DNA from: Rhizobiaceae bacterium
GTDB taxonomy: Bacteria; Pseudomonadota; Alphaproteobacteria; Rhizobiales; Rhizobiaceae
Assembly (NCBI GenBank): GCA_019635715.1
Contig: JAHBYY010000009.1
Span: 1 to 64,000, forward strand
Reading direction: 5' to 3'
Length of the DNA: 64,000 bases
The notes beneath the pieces are model-generated. The model did no database searches. It worked only from the letters and a program-made list of their open reading frames with translations, and had not been told where the DNA came from. The position numbers were made by a program, and so were the translations under genes. Shown here piece by piece: positions 1,706 to 48,039 of this stretch (position 1 is its first letter; each line of letters begins with the position of its first letter).

Positions 1706-3463
1706 ATGAATGTTTTTGCCGACTTCAACGAGCGGATCAGGAAAGCCGTGGAAGCCCTTGATCTGACGGACAAGGACGGAAACAGGGTCGATCTGGCGCG
1801 CGTCACCGTCGAGCCGCCGCGCGACGCCAGCCACGGCGACCTCGCCACGAATGCCGCGATGGTGCTGGCGAAGGCGGCCGGCCAGAACCCGCGCGCGCTG
1901 GGCGAGACGATCGCCGCCGCGCTGCGCGCCGACACGGACGTGGCGGAGGCCTCGGTGGCGGGTCCGGGCTTCGTCAACCTGCGCCTCAAGCCGGAATACT
2001 GGCAGCGCTACCTGGCCGACGTCGTGCGTCTGGGCGGCGATTTCGGCCGCTCGACCATGGGGGCCGGCCAAAGCGTCAACGTCGAATATGTGTCGGCCAA
2101 TCCGACCGGACCGATGCATGTCGGCCATTGCCGCGGCGCGGTGGTGGGCGATGCGGTCGCCAATCTGTTGGCCTTCGCCGGCTACTCGGTGGTCAAGGAA
2201 TATGTGATCAACGACGCCGGCGCCCAGATCGATGTGCTCGGACGGTCCGCCATGCTGCGCTACCGCGAGGCGCTCGGCGAGAATATCGGCGAGATCCCGT
2301 CCGGCCTCTATCCGGGCGACTATCTCGTGCCGGTCGGCCAGGCGCTGGCCGCCGAATTCGGCCGCCGCCTGCTCGACATGGCGGAGGAGGAAGCGCTTGC
2401 CATCGTCAAGGACCGCACCGTCGATGCGATGATGGCGATGATCCGGGACGATCTTGCGCTGCTCAACGTGCATCACGACGTGTTCTTCTCCGAGCGGACG
2501 CTGCATGCCGATGGCGCGACGGCGATCCGTGCGGCGATCGCCGACCTGACCCTCAAGGGCCACATCTACAAGGGCAAGCTGCCGCCGCCCAAAGGCGAGA
2601 AGCCGGACGACTGGGAAGACCGGGAGCAGACACTGTTCCGCTCCACCGAAGTCGGCGACGACATGGACCGTCCGCTGGTCAAGTCGGACGGCTCGTTCAC
2701 CTATTTCGCGGCCGACGTGGCCTATCTGAAGGACAAGGTGGACCGCGGTTTCGACCAGCTCATCTATGTGCTCGGCGCGGACCATGGCGGTTACGTCAAG
2801 CGGCTCGAGGCGCTGGCCAGGGCGGTCACCGATGGACGCGTCAAGCTGACCGTGCTGCTGTGCCAGCTCGTCAAGTTGTTCCGCGACGGCGAACCGGTGC
2901 GCATGTCGAAGCGTTCCGGCGAGTTCATCACGCTGCGCGAAGTCGTCGAGGAGGTGGGGCGCGACCCGATCCGCTTCATGATGCTCTACCGCAAGAGCGA
3001 TGCGCCGCTCGACTTCGATTTCGCCAAGGTGACCGAGCAGTCCAAGGACAACCCTGTCTTCTACGTGCAATATGCCTCGGCGCGCTGCCACTCGGTGTTC
3101 CGGCAGGCGCGGGAACACTTGGAAGGCTTCCGCTTCGATCCTGCGGCGTTTGCCGAGAATGTCTCGCTGCTCGACGACGACAGCGAGATCGCGCTGGTGC
3201 GCAAGATCGCCGAGTATCCGCGTCTGGTGGAGTCGGCCGCGCAGGCCCTGGAGCCGCACAGGCTTGCCTTCTACCTCTACGATCTCGCCAGCGCGTTCCA
3301 TGCCCAGTGGAACCGAGGCACCGAGAATCCGGACTTACGCTTTGTTAAGGTAAACAATCGAGAATTGACCAATGCGAGGCTCGGTCTTGTTCAGGCCGTA
3401 TCGGAGGTTCTCACTTCCGGGCTGGGGATGGTCGGAGCCGAAGCGCCGGTGGAAATGAGGTAG
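1706..3463 (+). CDS. argS: Arginyl-tRNA synthetase
   Basis: A 585-residue class I aminoacyl-tRNA synthetase that charges tRNA-Arg. The ATP-binding HIGH-type motif is HVGH at residues 138-141, following SANPTGPM, and the second signature is RMSKRSG near residue 400. An N-terminal Add1-like tRNA-binding region and a C-terminal DALR anticodon-binding domain flank the catalytic fold. The start at 1706 ([14 protein letters not shown]) matches the family; the upstream GTG at 1658 would add 16 unlikely residues. It lies 85 bp before the SPOR-domain gene. Confidence 0.96.
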
Positions 3464-33896: not shown

Positions 33897-36800
33897 CTAT
33901 CTCAGCATGCCGGCGGCATGCGCCAGCATCGTGTAGACCTTGCCGGTCTCCGACGTCAGATAGCTGCGCGAGACGCTGCCGTCGCGATCCGCGCGTCCCA
34001 CCTCGGCGAGCAGCTTCTCGAAATCCTTGCAGTAGCGGTCGACGGCGCCGCGGAAATCGGCGTCGGACTGGTACTTGCGGCGGATGTCGTCGAAGGTCTG
34101 CTGCCCCTTCAGCGTGTAGAGGCGGCGGCTGAACACACCGCGCTCGCCGGCGCGGTAGCGCTCCCAGAAATCGACGAGCGCTTCCTGGTCGATCGCCCGC
34201 GGGATGTCGGTGGCGAGCGAGCTCAACGGCGACGCGGCGGGACGGGCCGCGGGCTGCTCCGGCGCGCGGGGCGCTTCACGCAGGCGCGGCAGCTCCGCCA
34301 CCAGGTCCTCGCGCTCGGCGCGCGCCGCGCCGGTGAGCAGATCCTGGACCCAGCCGCTCGAGCGCGGACGCTCGGCCGCGTCTTCGCGCGGACGGACGGC
34401 TTCCGGCGCGGGCTGGACAGGAGGCGCATCGCTGGCGCGACCCTGCGGCGGCACGAGGCGGCGCGCCGGCTCGGACTTTTCCGAGACGTCGATGGTGCGG
34501 CCGGACTTGGCGACGATGTCCGACAGTTCCTTGAGCGCCTTGATCTGCTCGCCGACCGCGCGGCGGATCGCCGTGGTCGATTCCTTCGCCTCCTCCGGCA
34601 TGCTCAACACGCCCTTCTTCAGCTCGGCGCGCGTGCTCTCGAGGTCGTTGCGGATCGAGCCCGCGGTGCGCCGCATCTCTTCCGTCGCATCGGAGAAGCG
34701 CTGCGTCGCCGCCTCGACGACATCGGTGATCGATTCGCGGATGCGGTCGGCGGATTCGCGGGTCCTGCCCTCCGCCTTGTCCAGGGCCCGTTCGACGAGC
34801 CCCTCGAACGATTTCATGATGCGCTCGAGATCCTCCGACTTGCGGACCAGGCCGACGGCCAGATCCTCCAGCCCGGTCTGACGCTCGAGCGTGTGCTCGA
34901 GATTGCTTTGCGCCGAGCTCAGCAGCTCCGACGCGCTGGTCAGCAGGCGGCTGTGCTCGTCGAAGCGCGTGGCGATCGAAGCCACCTCGCGCAGCGTCTT
35001 CGACGACAGTTCGGTGAGGCGGTCCGTGTTCGAATCGACCAGCCGCGCCGAACTCGAGAAGGTGAGGGCGGCACGTTCAGTCGAGGCCGCGAACCGCTCC
35101 GTCGTCGTCCCGAGCGTCGTCTCGACCTGATCGAGATTGGCCGAGGCCGACTCGATCAGCTCGCCGAGCTTGGCGCTCGATGCCGACATGCGCCCGATCA
35201 GCTCGTTGACGCCGCTGGCGAGGCTGTTGCGGGCACCCTCGACCCGCGCCAGCGTCTCGCTGGTGCGGTTCGACAGAGCCTCCGCCAGGCTGTCGTTCTG
35301 GGCCCGCAGCGTCTCCGCGGCCCGCTCGGTGGCGCCGCTGACGGTGCGCTCCAGATCGGAGCTGGCGACTGCCAGCCTGTCGGCGAGCGGACGCGCCGTC
35401 TCGTCGAGGATGCGGTTGATCTCGGCCGAGCGGTCCGCCATCAGCGTGTTGAGTTCGCGGGTGCTGCTGGCGATCGACCGCGCTGCCTCGTTGGTGCTCT
35501 GGCCGAGGTGGTTGCCGATGTTGGTGAACGTGTCGGCGATCACGCCGGCGCGGCTGACGAGGGTTTCCTCGGCCTCGGCAACGTGCGCGCGCACTTTCTG
35601 GCCGAGCGACGCGGCGCTCGCGGCGACGCGGCCCTCGACCGCTTCGACCGTCTCGTCGATTCGCTGGGCGGCGGCATCTGCGCCGCCGAACAGCCGGCTC
35701 GAGGCTTCCGCCAGCTTGGCGTCGAGACGGGCGGCGGCGGCGTCGGCGCTGGCGCCGAGGCGGCGGTCGGCGGCCGACAGGGCGTCCTCCACGGCCCGGG
35801 CGCGGTTCTCCAGTTCGATGGACGATTCGCTCGCCCGCTCGACGATCCGCCGCTCCGAGGTTTCGAAGGCGTCGGCGATCTCCGCGGCCTTGCTGCCGAG
35901 CAGCGAGGCGCCGTCGGTGATGCGGCGGGCCAGCCGGTCGTCGGCGTCGCGGAACACCTGGCCCATCTCGACCGCGCGCGCCGAAATGGCCTCCGAAGCT
36001 TCTCCCGTCTTCTCCGAAATGCGGTTGCTGGCCGTGTCGAACAACCGGCCGAGGTCGGCCAGGCGATCGGCCAGCGTTCCGGTAGCGGTCTCCATGCGGG
36101 CCGCCAGCCGATCATCGGTCGCCTCGAAGATCTTCTCGACCTGCGTGGCGCGGCTCTCCAGCATCTGGCTGCTGTCGCCGATGCGCTGCGCCATGCGGCT
36201 GTCGGCGTCCTTGAACACCTGCTCGGCCTCGGCGGTCCGGCCGGCGAGAATCTCGACGCTCTGCCCGATGCGGTCGGCCATCCGCTCATCGGCCGACTGG
36301 AACACCCGACCGATCTCGGCGGCCTTGCCCAGCAACTGCTCGGCGCTCTGGCCGGCGCGCAGAGTCAGGCGCTGGTCGGCGTCCTCGAACGTCTTCACCA
36401 GCTCCGTGGCACGGGCACCGAAGGCATTGGCGCCCTCGGCGATGCGGGCCGCGAACTGGCGGTCGGCGGCGCCGAGCGTGTCGCCGAGCTCGACGGTACG
36501 CTGGGCGAGGGCGTCCGCGCCCTTGGCGAAGCGGATCTCGATCTGTTCGTCGACGCGGCCGAAAAGCTGTCCCATCTCGGCGCTGCGCGCCGACAGCGCA
36601 TCCGCCGACTCGGCGATGCGCCGCGCCAACTGTCCGTCGGCGGCATCGAAGCCGCGGACGATCTCGGTGGCGCGCTTGGCCAGCGTCTCCGCCGTTTCGA
36701 TGGCGCGCGACACCAGCCGCTGGTCGGCATTCTCGAACGTCAGCCGGATCTCGTCGGCCCGGCCGGCCAGCGACTGGCCGGTTTCGGTCGCCCGCGCCAG

Positions 36801-39800
36801 GATCTGCTGGTCGGCCCGCTCGAATACGCCGGCGATGTCGTTGGCGCGGGCAAGCAGCGCCTCCGAAGTTGCCGCGGCCCGCTCGGCGATCCGCCGGTCG
36901 GCGTCGGTGAAGGCGCGTCCCGCCTCGGAATTGAGCGCCTCGGTCACCTCGATCACCTTGTCGCGGATCGCGGTTGCCGCCGCGACCGCGGTGCGTTCGA
37001 GCACCAGCCGGACATTGTCCACCCCGGTGGCAAGGGCGCGCTGCATCGTCGCGGTGCGTTCCTGGAGGACGCCGCCCTGGCGGTCGAACGCGCCTTCGAT
37101 GCGCTCGATGTCCGCGGCGAGCGCCTGCGAGATGACCTCGCGCTTGCCGGCGATCGTGTCGATATGGCCGGAAATCTCCTGGTCGATGGCACGGCGGGCA
37201 ACGACGAGCTTCTGCAGATCGTCCTGGAGCGCCTCGGCCAGCTTGGCGCGACCCTCTTCGAGCGCCCGCAGATGCGTCGCCGCGATCTCGTCGATGCCTG
37301 CGCGGGCATCCGAGACCTTGCGCAGATTGGCGTCCAGCGCCTCCGCCAGAACGACCTGGCCATTGGCCAGACGTTCGGCCTGGCTTTCGGCGGCGCGGTC
37401 GATTTCCCCGCGGCTCGCCGACAGCCGCTCCAGGTCGGATTCGAGCGCGCGGCGCAGGATGTCTCGACCCTGGGCGAGCTTCTCGACCTGCGCGGCGACC
37501 AGCATGTCGATGCTGGCGCGGGCCTCGCCGAGCTTCAGCAGATCGGCTTCCAGCGCCTGCGCCAGTTCGCGGCGGCCGCCGGCAAACTTGTCGGCGTGGC
37601 CGGAGACCAGGCCGTCGATGATCCCGAGATCGGCCTCCAGAGACTTGGCGAAGCCGTCGCGTGCCTGTGCGAGCTTCTGCACCTGGCCGTCGAGCAGCGT
37701 GTCGATGCCGGACAGGTCCTCGGCGAGGGCGCGCGACAGCACCTCGCGTCCGTCGGCAAGCTTCGACACCTGCTCGCGGATGGTGACCGCGAGGCTGCCC
37801 ATGTCGGTCTCCAGCGCGCTGGCGAGGATGTCGCGGCCCTCGGAGATCTTCTCCAGGTGGCGCGCCACCATCTGGTCGAGGGTCGAGCGGCTGTCCTCGA
37901 CCTTCTGCAAGTCGGCCTCCAGCGCCCGGGCAAGCAGAGTGCGCCCCTCCGCGAGCTTGGAGACATGGCCGGCGACGGCCGCGTCGATGCCGGCGCGGGC
38001 CTCCGACAGCCGCGCCAGGTCTTCCTCCAGCGCCCGCGAGAGGATGGACCGGCCTTCGGCGATCTTCTCGACCTGCGACTGGACGATGCCGTCGATTTCG
38101 GAACGGGTCTCGATGATCTGGTCGAGATCGGCGCGCAGCGACAGCTTGAGCGCGTCGCGGGCGTCGGCCAGCCGCTGGCCGTGCTCGGTGACCAGCGCGT
38201 CGAGTTCGCCGCGCGCCAGCGCAACAGCGGCGAGGTCGTTTTCGAGCGATTCCGTGAGCCGGGTGCGGGCCTCGGCCACCTTGTCGATCTGGCCGGCAAG
38301 CAGGGCATCGATCGCGCCTCGGCTGCCTTCGAGCCTTTCGAGATCGGCCTCCAGCGCGCGTTTGAGGACGTCACGGCCCTCGGCCAGCTTCTCGACATGC
38401 GCAAGCGCGATCCCGTCGAGCTGCCCGCGGCTCTCGGCAAGCTGCGCGAGATCGGCCTGCAGCGCCAGCCTCAGCGCCTCGCGTCCTTCGGCGAGCTTCG
38501 CCACATGCGACGCGGCGATCGAGTCGATCTCGGCGCGGCTCTCGTTGAGCCTGGCGAGATCTTCGTCGAGCGCGGCGCGCAGCACGGCGCGGCCGTCGGC
38601 CAGGTTGCGGGTCTGGACCTCGGCCAATCCGTAGATCTCGGCACGGCTCTCCATGAGCCGCGCCAGGTCTTCCTCCAGTGCGCGCTTCAGCAGATCGCGG
38701 CCCTCGCCGAGCTTCTGGATGTGCTGGCCGGCGATCGAGTCGATCTCGGTGCGGCTCACCGAGAGCTTCTGGAGGTCGGCCTCCAGGGCGCGGGTCAGGA
38801 TGTCGCGGCCTTCGGACAGCTTCCCGACCTGGGCGGCGACCAGCCCGTCGATGCTGGCGCGGCTGTCGGCCAGCGTCGCCAGATCGGCTTCGAGCGCGAC
38901 CTTCAGCGCGTCGCGGCCCTCGGCCAGCTTCGCCACGTGCGATGCCGCGATGGCGTCGATCTCGGCACGGCTCTGCGAAAGCTTGGCGAGATCTTCCTGC
39001 AGCGCCTGCTTGAGCAGGTCGCGGCCGGCGCCAAGGTTGCGCACATGCGCCTCGGCCAGCGTATCGATCTCGGCGCGGCTCTGGTTGAGCTTGGCGAGGT
39101 CGGCCTCCAGGGCCCGGGTGAGCAGGCTGCGGCCTTCCTGAAGCTTTTCCACCTGCGCGACGACCACCCGGTCGATGCCGGCGCGGCCTTCGACCAGCGA
39201 GGCCAGGTCTTCTTCCAGCGCGCGCTTCAGCACGGCACGGCCTTCGCCAAGCTGCCGGATATGGGTGTCGGCAAGTCCGTCGATCTCGCTGCGGCTCTGC
39301 GCGAGCTTCGCAAGGTCGTCCTGAAGCGCCTGCTTCAGCGCCTGCCTGCCGGCTTCCAGGCCGCGGATATGCGTTTCGGCGAGGCTGGTGATTTCGGCAC
39401 GGCTCTCGGTCAGGCGCGCGAGGTCTTCCTCCAGCGCGCGGCGCAGAACCTCGCGGCCTTCGCCGAGCTGGCGGACATGGCTGTCTGCCAGCCCGTCGAT
39501 GGCGCTGCGGCTCTCCGCCAGACGCGCCAGATCGTCGTCCAGCGCCTTCTTCAGGACCGCGCGGCCTTCGTCGAGATTGCGAATGTGGGCCTCGGCGAGG
39601 CCGTTGATCTCGATGCGGCGCTCGTCGAGCTTGGCGAGATCGGCTTCCAGGGCCCGCGACAGCAGCCCGCGTCCCTCGGCCAGCTTCTCGACCTGGCCGG
39701 CGACCAGCGTGTCGATGGTGCCGCGGCTCTCCGCCACCTTGGCCAGATCGTCCTCCAGGGCCTTCTGCAGCAGGATACGGCCTTCGCCGAGCGTCGCGAC

Positions 39801-42800
39801 GTGCCGCTCGGCGAGCCCGTCGATCTCGATCCGTACTTCCGAAAGCCTGGCCAGGTCGGCATCGAGAACCTGCCGGAGCGAATTGCGGCTCTCGGCGAGC
39901 TTGTCGTCGACTTTGCGGAGATCGCCCTCGAGCGCGCGGGTAAGGATGTCGCGACCCTCGGCGAGCTTGCCCACCTGCGCCGAAACCAGATTGTCGATGG
40001 CCGAGCGGCTGTCTTCCAGCGTTGCCAGATCCGCCTGCAGTGCCAGCTTAAGAGCCTCGCGGCCCTCACCGAGCTTGCGGATGTGCGCGTCCGCGATACC
40101 TTCGATTTCCGCCCGGCTTTCGGACAGACGCGCCAGATCCTCTTCGAGGGACTTCTGCAGCCTGCTCCGGCCTTCGCCGAGCTTGCCGATGTGGCTGTCG
40201 GCGATCGCGTCGATCTCGGTGCGGGCCTCCAGCAGCTTCGCCAGATCGGCGTCGAGCGCCTGACGAAGCGCCTGTCGGTTCTCGTCGAGCTTTTCGTCGA
40301 CCTTCTGCAGGTCGGCTTCCAGGGCGCGGGTCAGCAGGCCGCGGCCCTCGGCGAGCTTGCCGACCTGGGCGGAAATCATGCTGTCGACGGCCGTGCGGCT
40401 GTTCTCGATTGTCGCGAGGTCGGCCTGCAGCGCCAGCTTGAGCGCTTCGCGGCCCTCGCCGAGCTTGCGGATATGGGCGTCCGCTATCGAGTCGATCTCG
40501 GTGCGGCTTTCGGACAGGCGCGCCAGATCGTCCTCCAGGGCGCGCTTCATCGCCTCGCGCCCTTCGGCCAGCGTGCGCATCTGCGCATGCGCCAGCGCAT
40601 CGATCTCGCCGCGGCTTTCCGCGAGCTTGCCGAGATCGGCTTCGAGAGCCCGGGTCAGGATATCGCGACCCTGTGCGAGCTTCTCGACCTGCGCGGCCAC
40701 CAGCCCGTCGATGCCGGCGCGGCTGTCGGCCAGCGAGGCGAGATCGGCCTCCAAGGCGCGCTTGAGGAGTTCGCGTCCCTCGCCGAGCTTGGCGATGTGG
40801 CTGTCGGCGATCGAATCGATCTCCGCCCGGCTTTCCGACAGGCGGTTGAGGTCGGCGTCGAGCGCACGCTTCAGAATATCGCGCCCCTGCGCCAGTTTCT
40901 CGACCTGGGAGGCGACGAGACCGTCGATGCCGGCGCGGCTCTCGGCCAGTTTTGCCAGGTCTTCCTCAAGTCGCTTCGACAGCATCTCGCGGCCGTCCGC
41001 ATGCTGCCTGGCCTGCGCCTCGCCGGCGGCCCGCAACGCGGCGATGTCCTGGTCCAGCGCGGAGGTGAGCAGGGCGCGGCCCTCCACCAGCTTTGCGACA
41101 TGCGTGTCGACCATCTTGTCGATCGCCGCCATGTCCGATTCGAAGGCGCGCGAAAGCGTCTCGCGGCCGTCCTTGAGCTTCTCCGCCTGTCCGGAGAGCG
41201 ATGTCTCGATCTGCGTCAGCTCGGAATCGAGCGCGCGCGACAGAATCTTGCGGCCTTCGGAAAGCTTCTCCATGTGTCCGGCCACCATCGTGTCGATGCT
41301 GGCCATGTCCATCTCGAGCGCCTTGGCGAGCACGCCGCGCCCGAGCTCGATCTTCTCGGTCTGACCCGCGACCAGGCCGTCGATCCTGCCGATGTCGGCT
41401 TCGAGCGCTCCGGTGAGATCCGAGCGGGCATCGGCGATGCGGCCGATCTGCACGCCGACGCGGCCCTCCACGTCCTGCATCTCGGCCTGCATGGCGCGGG
41501 AGAACGCGTCGCTGGTCTCGGTGATCTTGCGCAACTGGCCGTCCACGACCGCCTGAAGTGCCGCCGCGTCGCTGTCGAGCGCCGAGGTGAGGGCGCCGCG
41601 GCTCTGCTCCATCTTCGCCACATGGTCGGCCACGAGATCTTCGATCCCGCGCAGGTCGCGCTGGAACTCCTCGGCAAGCCGATGCCGGCTGTCGTCGATG
41701 CGGCCGACATGGGCCGAGACCGCCTGATCGAGGCTGCTCACATCGGAGGCAAGGGCGTCGCGCAGCACGTTGCGGCTGTCGTGGAACTTCTCGATCTGCG
41801 CGGTGACGGAATTCTCGATCGCGCCGATGTCGCCGGCGATGGCGTCGCTCAGCGACTGGCGGCTCTCCGACAGCTTGTCGACCTGCGCGCTGATCGCCGC
41901 GTCTATGCTGCCCAGGTCGCCTTCCAGCGCCCGCGCGAGATCCTTCTTGGCATCGGCCATGCGGCCGGTCTGCGCCGTCACCAGCGCATCGAGGCGCTCG
42001 ACTTCCTGGTCGAAGCTCGCGGCGAGTGCCTGGCGCCCCTCGCTGAACTTCGCCGTCTGGTCGGCGACAAGCGCGCCGATCTTGGCGGAATCCGCCTCGA
42101 GCGCGCGGGTGAGGATGTTGCGTCCTTCCGCCAGCTTGGCGACCTGCGTGGCGACCAGCGCGTCGATCGCGGCGCGGCTTTCGGCCAGCTTGCCGAGGTC
42201 GGCCTCCAGCGTCTGCGACAGGAGCGAACGACCCTCGACCAGCTTGTCGACATGCGACTGGACCATAGCGTCGATCGCCTGCTTGGAAGCGGCGAGCTTC
42301 TCCTGGTCGCCGGCCATCATCGCCTCGAGCGCCTTGCGCTTCTCGGCGATCTGCCGGAACTGCTCGCCGAGCGACAGGTCGATCAGCGTGCGCGACTCGT
42401 CGAGCTTGCGGATATCCTCCTCGACCGAGGCCGTCAGCGCTTCGCGGCCGGCGGAGAATTTCTGCACCTGGGAGTCGACGCTCTGCTCAAGCTGGTCGCG
42501 GGTCGCGGCCAGCGACCCCAATTCGGTGCGCAGCCGTTCGGCAAGGCGTTCATGGCTATCGACGAACTGCTTCGACCGCTCCTCGACCGACCGTTCGATC
42601 TCGATGCGGGCCCCGGCGATCAGGTCGAGATCCGACTTGAAGGCTTCGGCCACGTCGCGGCGCGACGCCTGCAGGTTCTGCGCGAATTCCGAAGCGTGGC
42701 TGCCGAGCGCGATGGTCGTCGACGAGACCATGTCGGAAAGATCGCTGCCGAGCCGCGCGCGGCTTTCGTCGACGACGCCGGAAATCTGCTCGCGGCCTTC

Positions 42801-44237
42801 CCGGAAGGCCTCCGAGATCTCCTGAGCCCGCTCCACCAGGCTGTCGTTGATCTGGCGCGCCCGCGCCTCGAGAGCCGCGTTGAGTTTCTGAGCGCCGGTA
42901 TCGAGCGCCTCGGCCCGGGTCTGGAACTCGGAGATCAGGCTCTGCCCACGCTCTGCCAGCGTGCGCTCTATGCCCTGCAGACTGGTGTCGAGCTCATCGT
43001 TGAGCGAGCGGGCGGCGCCGCCGAGCAGCGAGACCATGCCTGCCGTGCGCTGGTCGAGCATTTCGGAAAGCGAGCGGGTCGTGTCGTCGGAGGTCTGCTT
43101 CAGCGAGGCGATGCGCGTGTCGAGCAGGCTGGCGAACGCCTCTCCCGACGTTGTGATGCGTTCGCTCAGCGTATCAAGCTTGCCGTCGATCGAATCGAAG
43201 ATCGATACGCCGCTGTCGTTGATGCGGTCGATCAGGGCGTCGCCCGAATTGGTGATCGTCATCGACAGCGTCGTCGAGGCACCGAGGATGCTGTCGCGGA
43301 TCGTGTCGCTGGCGAGGTTTAGCTGCTCCTTCAGCGTCTCGTTGGCGCCGACGATGGAGGCCCGCACCCGCTCGGCATGCTTGACCACCGCGTCGCGCTC
43401 GGTCCCGAGTCCATCGACCAGTTGGCGGATGCGCGTCTCGTTCTCCGAATAGGAGCGTTCGAGCTGGCTCACCTCGGACTGGACGAGCGCTTCCAGTTCC
43501 GCCGCCCGCGCGATGGTGCGTTCGAGCCCGTCGCCCATGGCGTCGACTTCACGGCGCACCGCCGCGCCAACCGAAGCGATGCGGGCCTGCGCCAGGTCCT
43601 CCGGCTCGGAAAGCCGGGCGGCGATCTCGGCCATGGAACGGGCCGCCAGCCGCATGTCCTGCGCCCGCCGGACCATCACGGCGAACGCCCAGAACAGGAG
43701 GATCGGCATCAGCGTCAGCACGGCCAGCACCAGGGCGGTCGGTTCCTCGACCAGCCGGGGCGCCGAGAACTCGGCGAAGAAGCTCCCGCCGAGCATCATC
43801 TGGGCAAGAGCGAGCCCGCCGGCCAGCCACAGGACCGAAAGCAGGCCGACGGCCCAGTAGATTCCGGTCGAGCCGCGCGCATTGAGGCTCTGGAACGGCA
43901 CCGGGGCGTCGCGCAGCCGGTCGTCGTTGGCCGGCGAGAAGGGCGACGTCGCAGGCGGATTGGCGCGCGCGACCGAAGTCGTGTTGGCCGCGGCGCGTGG
44001 AGCCTCCGCCGGCGGCTCCTCGGGCTTGCGGGTCGCGCCGGCCGTCGACGCGGCCGGCGTGCGGGACTCGCGCGACAGTTCTTCGGCGGCCTGCGAAATC
44101 TGCGCTTCCAGATCCTCCATCGAGGCGGCGATGTCGAGATCGTCGGTCCGGCTCTTCAAGCCGCGGTCGAGCGCCTGTTCGAGCGCCTTCGCCACGTCGT
44201 CGCTGCTGCCGGGGGACGTCTTCGGTGATTTGGCCAT
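33897..44237 (-). CDS. Giant coiled-coil repeat protein, Growth Pole Ring (GPR/RgsE)-like
   Basis: A 3446-residue protein. Residues 1-120 are soluble and low-complexity; two membrane helices follow (about 126-149 and 168-188); everything after is predicted cytoplasmic helix. Residues 592-2388 form 52 consecutive repeats with consensus like KLAEGRDILTRALEADLAKL, and residues 2472-2819 form 12 repeats of a second type starting F-x-x-A-D-x-R-L. A linker and a compact C-terminal domain (FWERYRAGERGVFSRRLYTL to the end) finish the protein. Architecture and C-terminus resemble rhizobial proteins annotated as kinesin-like or apolipoprotein-like, including GPR of Agrobacterium (about 2100 residues) and RgsE of Sinorhizobium, needed for polar growth. 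This one is far longer. The start at 44237 (MAKSPKTSPGSSDD) is six codons inside the longest frame. Orthology is inferred. Confidence 0.85.
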   Translation of the reverse strand: MAKSPKTSPGSSDDVAKALEQALDRGLKSRTDDLDIAASMEDLEAQISQAAEELSRESRTPAASTAGATRKPEEPPAEAPRAAANTTSVARANPPATSPFSPANDDRLRDAPVPFQSLNARGSTGIYWAVGLLSVLWLAGGLALAQMMLGGSFFAEFSAPRLVEEPTALVLAVLTLMPILLFWAFAVMVRRAQDMRLAARSMAEIAARLSEPEDLAQARIASVGAAVRREVDAMGDGLERTIARAAELEALVQSEVSQLERSYSENETRIRQLVDGLGTERDAVVKHAERVRASIVGANETLKEQLNLASDTIRDSILGASTTLSMTITNSGDALIDRINDSGVSIFDSIDGKLDTLSERITTSGEAFASLLDTRIASLKQTSDDTTRSLSEMLDQRTAGMVSLLGGAARSLNDELDTSLQGIERTLAERGQSLISEFQTRAEALDTGAQKLNAALEARARQINDSLVERAQEISEAFREGREQISGVVDESRARLGSDLSDMVSSTTIALGSHASEFAQNLQASRRDVAEAFKSDLDLIAGARIEIERSVEERSKQFVDSHERLAERLRTELGSLAATRDQLEQSVDSQVQKFSAGREALTASVEEDIRKLDESRTLIDLSLGEQFRQIAEKRKALEAMMAGDQEKLAASKQAIDAMVQSHVDKLVEGRSLLSQTLEADLGKLAESRAAIDALVATQVAKLAEGRNILTRALEADSAKIGALVADQTAKFSEGRQALAASFDQEVERLDALVTAQTGRMADAKKDLARALEGDLGSIDAAISAQVDKLSESRQSLSDAIAGDIGAIENSVTAQIEKFHDSRNVLRDALASDVSSLDQAVSAHVGRIDDSRHRLAEEFQRDLRGIEDLVADHVAKMEQSRGALTSALDSDAAALQAVVDGQLRKITETSDAFSRAMQAEMQDVEGRVGVQIGRIADARSDLTGALEADIGRIDGLVAGQTEKIELGRGVLAKALEMDMASIDTMVAGHMEKLSEGRKILSRALDSELTQIETSLSGQAEKLKDGRETLSRAFESDMAAIDKMVDTHVAKLVEGRALLTSALDQDIAALRAAGEAQARQHADGREMLSKRLEEDLAKLAESRAGIDGLVASQVEKLAQGRDILKRALDADLNRLSESRAEIDSIADSHIAKLGEGRELLKRALEADLASLADSRAGIDGLVAAQVEKLAQGRDILTRALEADLGKLAESRGEIDALAHAQMRTLAEGREAMKRALEDDLARLSESRTEIDSIADAHIRKLGEGREALKLALQADLATIENSRTAVDSMISAQVGKLAEGRGLLTRALEADLQKVDEKLDENRQALRQALDADLAKLLEARTEIDAIADSHIGKLGEGRSRLQKSLEEDLARLSESRAEIEGIADAHIRKLGEGREALKLALQADLATLEDSRSAIDNLVSAQVGKLAEGRDILTRALEGDLRKVDDKLAESRNSLRQVLDADLARLSEVRIEIDGLAERHVATLGEGRILLQKALEDDLAKVAESRGTIDTLVAGQVEKLAEGRGLLSRALEADLAKLDERRIEINGLAEAHIRNLDEGRAVLKKALDDDLARLAESRSAIDGLADSHVRQLGEGREVLRRALEEDLARLTESRAEITSLAETHIRGLEAGRQALKQALQDDLAKLAQSRSEIDGLADTHIRQLGEGRAVLKRALEEDLASLVEGRAGIDRVVVAQVEKLQEGRSLLTRALEADLAKLNQSRAEIDTLAEAHVRNLGAGRDLLKQALQEDLAKLSQSRAEIDAIAASHVAKLAEGRDALKVALEADLATLADSRASIDGLVAAQVGKLSEGRDILTRALEADLQKLSVSRTEIDSIAGQHIQKLGEGRDLLKRALEEDLARLMESRAEIYGLAEVQTRNLADGRAVLRAALDEDLARLNESRAEIDSIAASHVAKLAEGREALRLALQADLAQLAESRGQLDGIALAHVEKLAEGRDVLKRALEADLERLEGSRGAIDALLAGQIDKVAEARTRLTESLENDLAAVALARGELDALVTEHGQRLADARDALKLSLRADLDQIIETRSEIDGIVQSQVEKIAEGRSILSRALEEDLARLSEARAGIDAAVAGHVSKLAEGRTLLARALEADLQKVEDSRSTLDQMVARHLEKISEGRDILASALETDMGSLAVTIREQVSKLADGREVLSRALAEDLSGIDTLLDGQVQKLAQARDGFAKSLEADLGIIDGLVSGHADKFAGGRRELAQALEADLLKLGEARASIDMLVAAQVEKLAQGRDILRRALESDLERLSASRGEIDRAAESQAERLANGQVVLAEALDANLRKVSDARAGIDEIAATHLRALEEGRAKLAEALQDDLQKLVVARRAIDQEISGHIDTIAGKREVISQALAADIERIEGAFDRQGGVLQERTATMQRALATGVDNVRLVLERTAVAAATAIRDKVIEVTEALNSEAGRAFTDADRRIAERAAATSEALLARANDIAGVFERADQQILARATETGQSLAGRADEIRLTFENADQRLVSRAIETAETLAKRATEIVRGFDAADGQLARRIAESADALSARSAEMGQLFGRVDEQIEIRFAKGADALAQRTVELGDTLGAADRQFAARIAEGANAFGARATELVKTFEDADQRLTLRAGQSAEQLLGKAAEIGRVFQSADERMADRIGQSVEILAGRTAEAEQVFKDADSRMAQRIGDSSQMLESRATQVEKIFEATDDRLAARMETATGTLADRLADLGRLFDTASNRISEKTGEASEAISARAVEMGQVFRDADDRLARRITDGASLLGSKAAEIADAFETSERRIVERASESSIELENRARAVEDALSAADRRLGASADAAAARLDAKLAEASSRLFGGADAAAQRIDETVEAVEGRVAASAASLGQKVRAHVAEAEETLVSRAGVIADTFTNIGNHLGQSTNEAARSIASSTRELNTLMADRSAEINRILDETARPLADRLAVASSDLERTVSGATERAAETLRAQNDSLAEALSNRTSETLARVEGARNSLASGVNELIGRMSASSAKLGELIESASANLDQVETTLGTTTERFAASTERAALTFSSSARLVDSNTDRLTELSSKTLREVASIATRFDEHSRLLTSASELLSSAQSNLEHTLERQTGLEDLAVGLVRKSEDLERIMKSFEGLVERALDKAEGRTRESADRIRESITDVVEAATQRFSDATEEMRRTAGSIRNDLESTRAELKKGVLSMPEEAKESTTAIRRAVGEQIKALKELSDIVAKSGRTIDVSEKSEPARRLVPPQGRASDAPPVQPAPEAVRPREDAAERPRSSGWVQDLLTGAARAEREDLVAELPRLREAPRAPEQPAARPAASPLSSLATDIPRAIDQEALVDFWERYRAGERGVFSRRLYTLKGQQTFDDIRRKYQSDADFRGAVDRYCKDFEKLLAEVGRADRDGSVSRSYLTSETGKVYTMLAHAAGMLR
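35781..36824 (-). repeat. Twelve exact 29-codon repeats (second repeat type of the giant gene)
   Basis: Residues 2472-2819 of the giant protein divide into exactly 12 units of 29 residues (348 residues), each beginning F/L-x-x-A/V-D-x-R/Q-h and ending in an A-x-E-h-x-x-h pattern. No insertions or deletions occur across the block. Sequence identity between units is low to moderate, so the duplication is old and the length strongly constrained. Confidence 0.85.
37074..42464 (-). repeat. 52 tandem 29/36/58-codon repeats (main rod of the giant gene)
   Basis: Counting by hand, the block of 1797 codons is fully partitioned into 52 units: 17 of 29, 33 of 36 and two of 58 residues. The 36-residue unit equals the 29-residue unit plus one heptad (LAESRAE-like); 58 is twice 29. 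The 29-residue type clusters towards the N-terminal side (units 4-16), and the 36-residue type forms the centre. Units 22-24 and 25-27 look like a 130-residue (390-bp) higher-order duplication, because both carry the same unusual 58-residue unit. Confidence 0.85.
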
Positions 44238-44526
44238 GCCGCTTCCAACCCGCAAAAAGTGGCATGCATCGACACCCTCCCGTCACTGCGAAGGGCGCGC
44301 GGCATACCCAGCTTGAGGTCCCATCGTAGCCATCCGCGACCCCGAATGAAACTCGCAATCGGCTGGATGCTTAAAAGTCTAAATATAGGGTTAACGATGT
44401 TGGGACCCGTTGCCGAAGGGATTAGGGCGCAATTTCGCCGTTTTTGCGGTTAACCCGATTTCCACATCAATTCGCTACCGTGGTCTTTCATCGGCAGCCG
44501 GAACAGTTCAGGGCGTATCCAAGTCC

Positions 44527-44904
44527 ATGTACACACGCAGTGCAACCGCCGTCGCTTTTTCCATGCCCGGCGGCGAGGCCTCCACGACCACCGTCCGCGC
44601 CCGTCCCATCGACATGGCCCACCTTGCCCGCCAGACCATGGGCGACCGCGCGCTGGAGCAGGAGGTGCTCGGTCTCTTCGTCCAGCAGGCCGTCCAGGTC
44701 CTCGACGACATCCTGGCTTGCAACGGCCAGGATTGCCTGCGCCTGGCGCACGGGCTGAAAGGGTCGGCCCGCAGCGTCGGCGCGTTTGCGATCGCCGACT
44801 GTGCCGAGCAGATCGAGGACGACCCCGCCAACAAGTCCGCCAAGCGCAAGCTGGCGCGCCTCGTCGGCGAGGTCCGCGATTTCATCGCCGCGATCGGGCG
44901 CTGA
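44527..44904 (+). CDS. Hpt-domain phosphotransfer protein
   Basis: A 125-residue protein with a histidine phosphotransfer domain. The phosphorylatable histidine is His75 in LRLAHGLKGSARSVGAF, the canonical Hpt helix motif. The N-terminal 35 residues are low-complexity. It carries no receiver or kinase domain, so it must relay phosphate between partners elsewhere. It is divergent from the giant gene, with 289 bp between starts, which suggests but does not prove shared control. Confidence 0.88.
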   Translation: MYTRSATAVAFSMPGGEASTTTVRARPIDMAHLARQTMGDRALEQEVLGLFVQQAVQVLDDILACNGQDCLRLAHGLKGSARSVGAFAIADCAEQIEDDPANKSAKRKLARLVGEVRDFIAAIGR

Positions 44905-46512: not shown

Positions 46513-47127
46513 TCAGTTCGGCTTGCCCGCCGCGGAGCGTTCGAGGCGGTAGCGGAGCAGCCGCAGCAGACGGCTCTCGAAGTTGGCGGCCTCGATGCGG
46601 TCGAAACGATCCTGAGCCCGCTCGTGACGGGCGAGGATGTCGGCCGACACGGTTTTGGCCTTCTGCGCGGCGGCTTCGCAGGTCCGCTGGCTGCGCACGG
46701 CCAGCAGCGCACGCTCCAGATCATGGGCGAAACCCTTGGCGATCGAGACGTGGCTCTCCTCGTGACGCTTGATGTCGGAGGCCAGCGTGTCCCAGATCAG
46801 CCGCACCTCCGGATCCGCCCGCTTGGTCCTGCGCCATTTCGGCAGGATGACCTTGGCTTTCACCGTCACGGTCGCCTGAGCGATGCGGCAGTTGCTGCCG
46901 CGATCCTCATAGCCGATCCGCGTGGTGAACTGCATGCGGGTCGCGCCGGGATGCCGGTTGCCGGAACTGCCCAGCAGCGGCCCGCGCCTCGACAGCTCGC
47001 TCTCGATCTCGTCGAGCGTGCTGCCGCCGATGGAGAAGTAGCTGTAGGTCCTGGCTATGTTCGCCGCCGACGCGGGGGCGGCGAGGGCGAAACTCATCAG
47101 CAGCACGGCGACGGGAAATTTCAGCAT
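46513..47127 (-). CDS. DUF922 secreted putative zinc protease
   Basis: A 204-residue protein with a cleavable signal peptide (VAVLLMSFALAAPASA) and the DUF922 core. The motif RHEESHVSIAKGF contains HExxH, the basis for describing the family as putative secreted zinc-dependent proteases. The C-terminal third is a basic helical region. Proteolytic activity is unproven. The start is ATG 47127; the much longer open frame on this strand runs antisense to folP and is not coding. Confidence 0.82.
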   Translation of the reverse strand: MLKFPVAVLLMSFALAAPASAANIARTYSYFSIGGSTLDEIESELSRRGPLLGSSGNRHPGATRMQFTTRIGYEDRGSNCRIAQATVTVKAKVILPKWRRTKRADPEVRLIWDTLASDIKRHEESHVSIAKGFAHDLERALLAVRSQRTCEAAAQKAKTVSADILARHERAQDRFDRIEAANFESRLLRLLRYRLERSAAGKPN

Positions 47128-47187
47128 GTTGCCTCTCGGCGCACCATGCGCTAGGCACCCCGCCCGGTGCAATTCATTTCGGCGAAC

Positions 47188-48039
47188 ATGATGAAGGCGA
47201 CGACCTGGCAGCTCGCACATGGCCGTCGGCTCGAACTCGGCCGGCGCGCCGTGATCATGGGCATCCTCAACGTCACCCCGGACTCCTTCTCCGACGGCGG
47301 CCGCTTCGCGTCGGTCGAGGCGGCGCTCGATCAGGCCGCGCGAATGATCGGCGAGGGTGCTGCCATCGTCGATGTCGGCGGCGAGTCGACGCGCCCCGGC
47401 GCGGCATCGGTCACCGCGGCGCAGGAACAGGCCCGCGTCCTGCCGGTGATCGAAGGGCTGGCGCGGCGCGGCGACACCCTCATTTCCGTCGACACCTATC
47501 GCGCCGAGACGGCGCGTCTCGCCGTCGAGGCCGGCGCGCACATCGTCAACGATGTCTGGGGCCTGCAACGCGACGCCGGGATCGCCGGGGTCGCCGCCGG
47601 ATCGGGTGCCGGCTTGGCGATCATGCATACGGGACGCGAGCGCGCGAAACTCCCGGATGTGATCGACGACCAGATCGCCTTCCTCGGAAAATCGCTGTCC
47701 ATCGCCGCCGCCGCGGGGGTCGGGCGGGATCGGATCGTCCTCGATCCGGGCTTCGGCTTCGCCAAGGACGCCGGAGAGAATCTCGAACTGATGCGACGGT
47801 TCGCCGAACTGCACCGGCTCGGCCATCCCTGGCTGGTCGGAACGTCGCGCAAGCGCTTCATCGGCCATGTCACCGGCCGCGACGAGGATGGCCGCGCCGC
47901 GGGTACAGCGGCGACCAGCGTCATTCTGCGCCTGGCGGGTGCAGCGGTTTTCCGGGTCCACGATGTCGCAATCAACAGGGACGCGCTGGCTGTCGCGGAT
48001 GCTATGCTGATGAGCGATGCCAATGGCGGGGCGCGATAG
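47188..48039 (+). CDS. folP: Dihydropteroate synthase
   Basis: A 283-residue enzyme joining p-aminobenzoate to dihydropterin pyrophosphate in folate synthesis; it is the sulfonamide target. Signatures MGILNVTPDSFSDGG, DVGGESTRPGA and LVGTSRKRF are intact. ATG 47188 (or 47191) fits the family better than GTG 47167. First of a folP-folB-folK run. Confidence 0.95.
   Translation: MMKATTWQLAHGRRLELGRRAVIMGILNVTPDSFSDGGRFASVEAALDQAARMIGEGAAIVDVGGESTRPGAASVTAAQEQARVLPVIEGLARRGDTLISVDTYRAETARLAVEAGAHIVNDVWGLQRDAGIAGVAAGSGAGLAIMHTGRERAKLPDVIDDQIAFLGKSLSIAAAAGVGRDRIVLDPGFGFAKDAGENLELMRRFAELHRLGHPWLVGTSRKRFIGHVTGRDEDGRAAGTAATSVILRLAGAAVFRVHDVAINRDALAVADAMLMSDANGGAR

Follow-up and report, generated by a model that had tools for sequence, protein, structure and literature searches.

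A GPR/RgsE orthologue of unusual length, with a probably hendecad-type rod that may change length in register-keeping steps

The window analysed here, a stretch of 64,000 nucleotides from a host that belongs to the rhizobial family in GTDB's sense, carries on its minus strand an orthologue of gpr/rgsE (33897-44237) that encodes 3,446 residues from an ATG at 44237. The open frame itself covers 33897-44255 on that strand and starts at TTG; counted as 3,461 residues, it is the longest among 98 matched genomes and is also longer than all 155 complete relatives (the longest of these has 3,006 residues). The parts of the protein and two neighbouring genes are listed below.

43866..44237, minus strand: residues 1-124, proline-containing N-terminus with gaps of free length among relatives, probably disordered and cytoplasmic
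43791..43865, minus strand: residues 125-149, membrane helix 1 (hydropathy and AlphaFold2 helix)
43671..43733, minus strand: residues 169-189, membrane helix 2, followed by RR (hydropathy and AlphaFold2 helix)
42693..43670, minus strand: residues 190-515, conserved initial part of the rod (alignment with relatives)
37074..42464, minus strand: residues 592-2388, 87 modules (trained two-module model; lag identity)
35781..36824, minus strand: residues 2472-2819, twelve 29-residue units that follow another consensus (unit comparison)
34668..35780, minus strand: residues 2820-3190, remaining rod (hydrophobic period 3.63-3.66, lower in windows starting at 2970 or later)
34236..34667, minus strand: residues 3191-3334, proline-rich linker (prolines; gaps of free length)
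33900..34235, minus strand: residues 3335-3446, all-helical domain at the C-terminus (42 sequences share 43 invariant positions)
44410..44904, plus strand, divergent to gpr: Hpt-domain gene, domain at frame residues 85-158 (PF01627, E 3.7e-10)
46513..47961, minus strand, upstream of gpr and on the same strand: DUF922 gene (PF06037, E 1.2e-43)

The two hydrophobic stretches at 125-149 and 169-189 are compatible with a membrane hairpin by both hydropathy and AlphaFold2, and when residues 110-900 are aligned with 10 relatives, the invariant columns lie mostly in this hairpin and in residues 190-515. Proline is absent from 2,737 residues of the protein (213-2949), and AlphaFold2 predicts long continuous helices, with weak confidence (pLDDT 60, pTM 0.22). 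Collapse or false expansion of the repeats during assembly is unlikely, because the longest exact DNA repeat inside the gene is 23 bases and matching 300-nt copies are only 60-74% identical to their reference. Antisense to most of gpr runs an open frame of 3,134 codons (33918-43322, plus strand), which is probably a by-product of codon composition.

The first-pass annotation had proposed that this gene belongs to the GPR/RgsE system, with two N-terminal membrane helices and a length reached by repeat expansion, and these proposals are borne out by the hydrophobic stretches, by the rank of the frame among the 98 genomes and by comparison with known members. The N-terminal 358 residues are 39% identical to RgsE of Sinorhizobium meliloti (364 columns, E 6e-71 in a single comparison), and the C-terminal domain is 67% identical over 86% of a 117-residue query; this domain occurs in 98 genomes out of 101, counting that of the window. 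The S. meliloti record used is annotated 'kinesin', and its 2,089 residues equal the length published for RgsE (PMC7327166); the same report describes an rgsE deletion strain of S. meliloti Rm2011. Both S. meliloti and the window have DUF922 and Hpt genes upstream, a shared GPR/RgsE neighbourhood. More widely, an Hpt-like frame lies upstream of gpr in 115 of 154 relatives, divergently in 114 of these, and many of the 39 without it are Brucella-group loci; a DUF922 gene lies upstream on the same strand in 79 of the 125 relatives that have 4 kb upstream. A 774-residue Sphingomonas relative likewise has a divergent gene annotated Hpt, which scores 16.6 bits, under the Pfam cut-off of 24.6. The Hpt gene may link a phosphorelay to the GPR scaffold. 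With the expected architecture of two N-terminal membrane helices followed by a very long helical region (hydropathy, and AlphaFold2 at the weak confidence given above), the window protein can be firmly assigned, on N- and C-terminal sequence and gene order, as an unusually long GPR/RgsE orthologue. Several records among the relatives call for comment. Two Brucella-group assemblies (L132, L133) have much shorter gpr frames of 965 and 613 residues that have no membrane helix and are possibly the result of sequencing frameshifts, and one S. meliloti record of 3.7 Mb (L191, CP090106.1) is titled plasmid pSymB but, with rgsE, dksA and cytochrome c1 genes on it, seems to be the chromosome under a wrong label.

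GPR of Agrobacterium tumefaciens (Atu1348) has 2,115 amino acids and RgsE of S. meliloti (SMc00190) 2,089, so that the window protein exceeds them by about 1,350 residues. According to the relevant sections of the GPR report, GPR localises to the growth pole, forms a ring of six foci and is required for polar growth (PMC8262873). All three proteins have a membrane hairpin, a long helical rod, a region rich in proline and a conserved domain at the C-terminus (the GPR features as described in those sections of PMC8262873). The rods themselves differ: the strongest lags of RgsE are 22, 44, 29, 55, 33 and 11, multiples of 11 and 29, with a median period of 3.65, whereas the window rod consists mostly of 18- and 29-residue modules with a period of about 3.61. 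Scy and FilP of Streptomyces are likewise scaffolds of the pole or division site with long, repeat-expanded coiled-coil rods that contain hendecads, but they are described with a DivIVA-like N-terminus in place of a membrane hairpin, and Scy with a rod of more than 1,000 residues (PMC9858780). The tail of ZorA from Zorya type II gave a weak profile match confined to the rod (residues 2801-3002; 18.9 bits against a cut-off of 700). This single match lies well short of the family threshold and does not indicate membership in that system.

Identity at fixed lags exposes the repeats of the rod. Within residues 592-2388 it is 0.351 at lag 36, 0.179 at lag 18 and 0.161 at lag 29, whereas 100 shuffles never exceed 0.125 at any lag from 5 to 120; within residues 2472-2819 it is 0.332 at lag 29, with a shuffle maximum of 0.163. 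It had been noticed at first reading that the former region partitions into units of 29, 36 or 58 residues and the latter into 12 units of 29, and this arithmetic holds, in the lag identities as in a tiling of residues 592-2388 by a trained two-module model. That tiling has 87 modules, 69 of 18, 16 of 29 and 2 of 40 residues, and leaves over one end 7-mer and four single residues, at the ends. Each module is a 7-mer followed by one 11-mer (69 modules), two (16) or three (2). The further proposal that 36 is 29 plus a heptad, and 29 four heptads plus a skip residue, is not supported, given a hydrophobic period of 3.59-3.68 and a lower held-out score (both described below): 36 is instead 18+18 and 29 is 18+11, while each 58 is by arithmetic 18+40, and the sum 17x29 + 33x36 + 2x58 is the 7+11 tiling read in pairs. 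Two 7-mers are never adjacent in residues 592-2388 (0 cases). Across the family 1,619 adjacent pairs were seen versus 1,798 expected, with fewer than expected in 65 of 155 proteins; a rule against adjacent 7-mers holds in this region and fails family-wide.

The modules place hydrophobic residues with great regularity. Columns 1, 8, 12 and 16 of the 18-residue frame are 95-100% A, V, I, L, M or F, and the hendecad core (columns 8, 11, 12 and 16) is 87-100% of the same residues. Arginine occupies column 5 in 83 of 87 modules, partly by construction since the model was seeded with peptides containing it, and 83 of 87 modules carry D, H or Q in column 15 (position h). Plotted on a helical wheel at 100 degrees per residue, the column-5 arginine falls inside the 80-degree arc spanned by columns 1, 8, 12 and 16; an arginine adjoins the hydrophobic face once per module. 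Residues 2472-2819 follow a consensus of their own, with identities of 0.17-0.52 between successive 29-residue units, F at position 1 in 11 of 12 units, and R at position 11 in 11 of 12 and at position 22 in 10 of 12. The preceding unit, at 2443, fits this block too (0.38 identity), and 13 units rather than 12 are equally defensible. When models were compared on held-out halves of residues 592-2388, the 7+11 model gained 625-682 nats and a heptad-plus-insert model, which has fewer parameters, 216-332; neither fits the 12 x 29 block well after training on residues 592-2388, with transfer scores of +18 to -46 for the heptad-plus-insert model versus -55 to -105 for the 7+11 model.

The helical period of the rod was read from the spacing of V, I, L, M and F. 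Fourier peaks lie at 3.646 (residues 210-591), 3.606 (592-2388), 3.698 (2389-2471, weak), 3.622 (2472-2819) and 3.644 (2820-3190). All 96 rod windows of 120 residues show a clear peak, with a median of 3.61; the period is 3.59-3.68 for windows starting before residue 2970 and 3.52-3.58 only in four windows starting at 2970-3060. The median among relatives is 3.656 (n=153), or 3.647 in a second windowing (n=154). An undistorted helix has a period of 3.63, from which a hendecad departs by 0.03 (PMC9858780). Since a period of 3.59-3.68 is close to that value, most of the rod should be nearly untwisted and of hendecad type; windows starting before residue 2970 combine a hydrophobic period near 11/3 with hydrophobic core positions. 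At 0.15 nm per residue the rod of the window protein would measure about 448 nm. The GPR report gives, in its conclusions, 600 nm for an extended helix of 1,700 residues (PMC8262873), a figure that fits a stretched chain and not an alpha-helix (1,700 residues x 0.15 nm is about 255 nm).

The same numbers recur in the way the rods of the family vary. The gene was found in 160 relatives, 155 of them complete and 153 with a rod long enough for lag analysis. When the six strongest lags up to 60 were taken from each protein, 896 of 918 belonged to the set of lengths 11a+18b (null share 0.217), and 890 of 912 did so without one duplicated genome. Rod gaps of 5-70 residues fell in the set in 291 of 300 cases for pairs at least 80% identical (null 0.258), in 850 of 949 at 65% identity or more and in 5,397 of 7,236 at 50% or more, the share dropping as alignments worsen; 58 pairs that use each protein once gave 138 of 179, and 43 pairs at 60% identity or more gave 56 of 65. 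Because the alignment of repeats can itself force gaps of 11a+18b residues, close orthologues with exactly one rod gap were examined, in which gap length is hardly affected by gap placement. Here 185 of 186 gaps were in the set (20 of 21 for non-overlapping pairs, and 169 of 170 once a duplicated genome and its pairs were removed). Elsewhere in the same pairs the counts were 0 of 98 for the disordered N-terminus, 2 of 120 for the C-terminal linker and 22 of 207 for the remaining parts, although gaps in the disordered parts and the linker are mostly short and their miss rate is not a like-for-like null.

Many of these indels are shared by descent among pairs, and they were therefore collapsed by hand by clade and length. 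Twelve collapsed events of at most 70 residues resulted, 11 of them in the set (binomial 3e-6). In all 21 indels the extra segment is closer in DNA to its better neighbour (identity 0.33-0.94) than the rod mean at that lag (0.32-0.49), with one marginal case and with some inflation from choosing the better side. This likeness to a neighbour suggests that the underlying mutations are tandem duplications or deletions. Gaps of 1-4 residues make up 710 of 830 gaps in the linker versus 1 of 317 in the rods of the same genes, and their near-absence from the rods suggests purifying selection against off-register change. We infer that the register of the rod is under selection. Single 7-residue gaps count against a register rule; among pairs that share at least 65% identity, they account for 66 of the 949 gaps 5-70 residues long.

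Period and length also vary with lineage. In a class-wide sample of 76 genomes the C-terminal profile matched 30, including the window's own and one other member of the order, and 27 proteins, 26 from outside the order, were recovered from this sample and Sphingomonas. Outside the order the median period is near 3.57 and rods are shorter; one outside protein reaches at least 3.61 (L200, 3.615), and its frame is also long (2,000 residues). Inside the order only 5 of 172 rows lie below 3.61 (L124, L133, L221, L224 and L226), of which L226 is truncated at the edge of its contig and L133 is the 613-residue frame described above. Measured from stop to stop, 154 order members have a median length of 1,943.5 versus 1,054 for the 27 proteins of the outgroup sample, one of which belongs to the order. 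Thirteen further order members have short frames (627-1,202 residues), and 10 of them have periods of 3.61-3.65, which argues that a change of rod geometry may have preceded lengthening. A tentative reading, which we would not yet favour over its negation, is that a coil with a period of about 3.57 became an untwisted hendecad rod (3.61-3.67) near the base of the Hyphomicrobiales, that this geometry allowed the rod to grow in quanta made of 11 and 18 residues, and that selection acts on the register of the seam and not on its length or sequence; the contrast in period that sets the order apart is a correlation seen across a single split.

The explanation that we consider probable is that GPR/RgsE is a membrane-anchored growth-pole scaffold with a nearly untwisted hendecad rod that changes length in register-keeping steps. 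The membrane hairpin would anchor about 3,000 residues of cytoplasmic helix, followed by the proline-rich linker and the conserved C-terminal helical domain, and in residues 592-2388 the 11-mers punctuated by 7-mers set leucine, isoleucine and valine on one narrow face. Copies may associate with each other side by side along this seam to give a straight rod or bundle, which could hold partners in cell-wall synthesis at the pole. Indels would persist mainly when the seam stays aligned, giving length steps of 11a+18b residues that probably arise by tandem duplication and deletion of modules; the specific work would be done by the conserved ends, and the exact length of the rod would be tolerated. 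Published deletions bear on this model. The GPR report describes a 20-residue deletion that interfered more severely than any other tested, removal of the whole surrounding domain included, which surprised its authors (PMC8262873). At periods of 3.60-3.656, the loss of twenty residues would rotate the seam by 169-200 degrees, and such a half-turn could explain the harm done in trans if seam register is selected. A second 20-residue rod deletion complemented well, which argues against a strict register rule, and end points appear in that report both as 413-433 and as 413-434 (PMC8262873), so that the explanation is only suggestive.

Other readings of the rod have to be set against this one. The first-pass annotation saw a heptad coiled coil of the canonical left-handed kind, interrupted by skip residues, drawing on the differences 36 minus 29 = 7 and 29 = 4x7+1, and the four windows starting at 2970-3060 and the less bad fit of the heptad-plus-insert model to the 12 x 29 block are in its favour. 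Power at a period of 3.5 is near zero in all five rod segments tested, however (0.2 versus 100.5 at the 3.606 peak in residues 592-2388), and in that region lag 7 is enriched only 1.14-fold versus 1.88-fold for lag 18 and 3.68-fold for lag 36, with the poorer held-out fit already given. A heptad coil is thus disfavoured as the structure of the rod, and we hold it to be very improbable; the regularly spaced stutters of that description stand formally, an 11-mer being a heptad plus a stutter of four, while its heptad period does not. A giant amphipathic helix lying on the inner membrane, which might mark or sort polar lipid in the manner of apolipoproteins or of perilipin 4 on lipid surfaces, would also explain 11-mer periodicity, which is typical of such helices. 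To our knowledge, perilipin 4 has no N-terminal membrane hairpin. It too is a giant helix of tandem 11-mer-based repeats (29 of 33 residues), although the passages describing it make it net positive, weakly hydrophobic and bound to lipid droplets (PMC5889406). A lipid role is favoured by the GPR authors (PMC8262873), and RgsE of S. meliloti, at 257.8 bits, scores above the Pfam apolipoprotein cut-off of 90. The window protein falls below that cut-off for apolipoprotein A1/A4/E (PF01442; 44.7 versus 90 bits), and its rod, unlike the perilipin 4 repeat, is net negative (-0.048 per residue; family median -0.062) with a narrow, leucine-rich hydrophobic face, L, I and F being enriched 3.3-4.7-fold within 30 degrees of the hydrophobic moment. 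Such charge and such a face suit helix-helix packing better than the coating of an anionic membrane, and we regard a membrane-lying helix as distinctly unlikely.

Two further alternatives concern length rather than structure. Quantised length could be a mere by-product of in-frame recombination between repeats, with no selection on register. The likeness of extra segments to a neighbour indicates that module-sized duplications and deletions happen, and recombination between repeats alone would favour module-sized changes, which counts against the register-selection reading; the distribution of 1-4-residue gaps between linker and rods of the same genes speaks the other way, and this alternative seems to us unlikely. 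The rod might also be a ruler tuned to ring size or to distance from the pole tip, as the first reading had suggested for its length. The strong difference in median length between lineages would fit, but differences of 15-94 residues occur within pairs of more than 90% identity (43 of 89 pairs at 90% identity or more have no rod gap), and long spacer coiled coils usually conserve their length (PMC5082667). A tuned rod length is accordingly unsupported and, in our estimate, quite improbable.

New here are the module grammar, the quantised indels and the difference in period. The authors of the GPR report remark that the predicted helical structure gives no easy clues to structure or function (PMC8262873). 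GPR/RgsE is central to unipolar growth, and the grammar, the seam and the change of period together amount to a structural model that can be tested by a deletion series. The preferred reading, of a scaffold whose rod keeps its seam in register, describes long helical rods whose length evolves in quanta, in contrast to spacer coiled coils, which usually conserve theirs (PMC5082667). Steps made of 11 and 18 residues would leave the hydrophobic stripe along the helix in line, and this rule can be tested directly at the bench.
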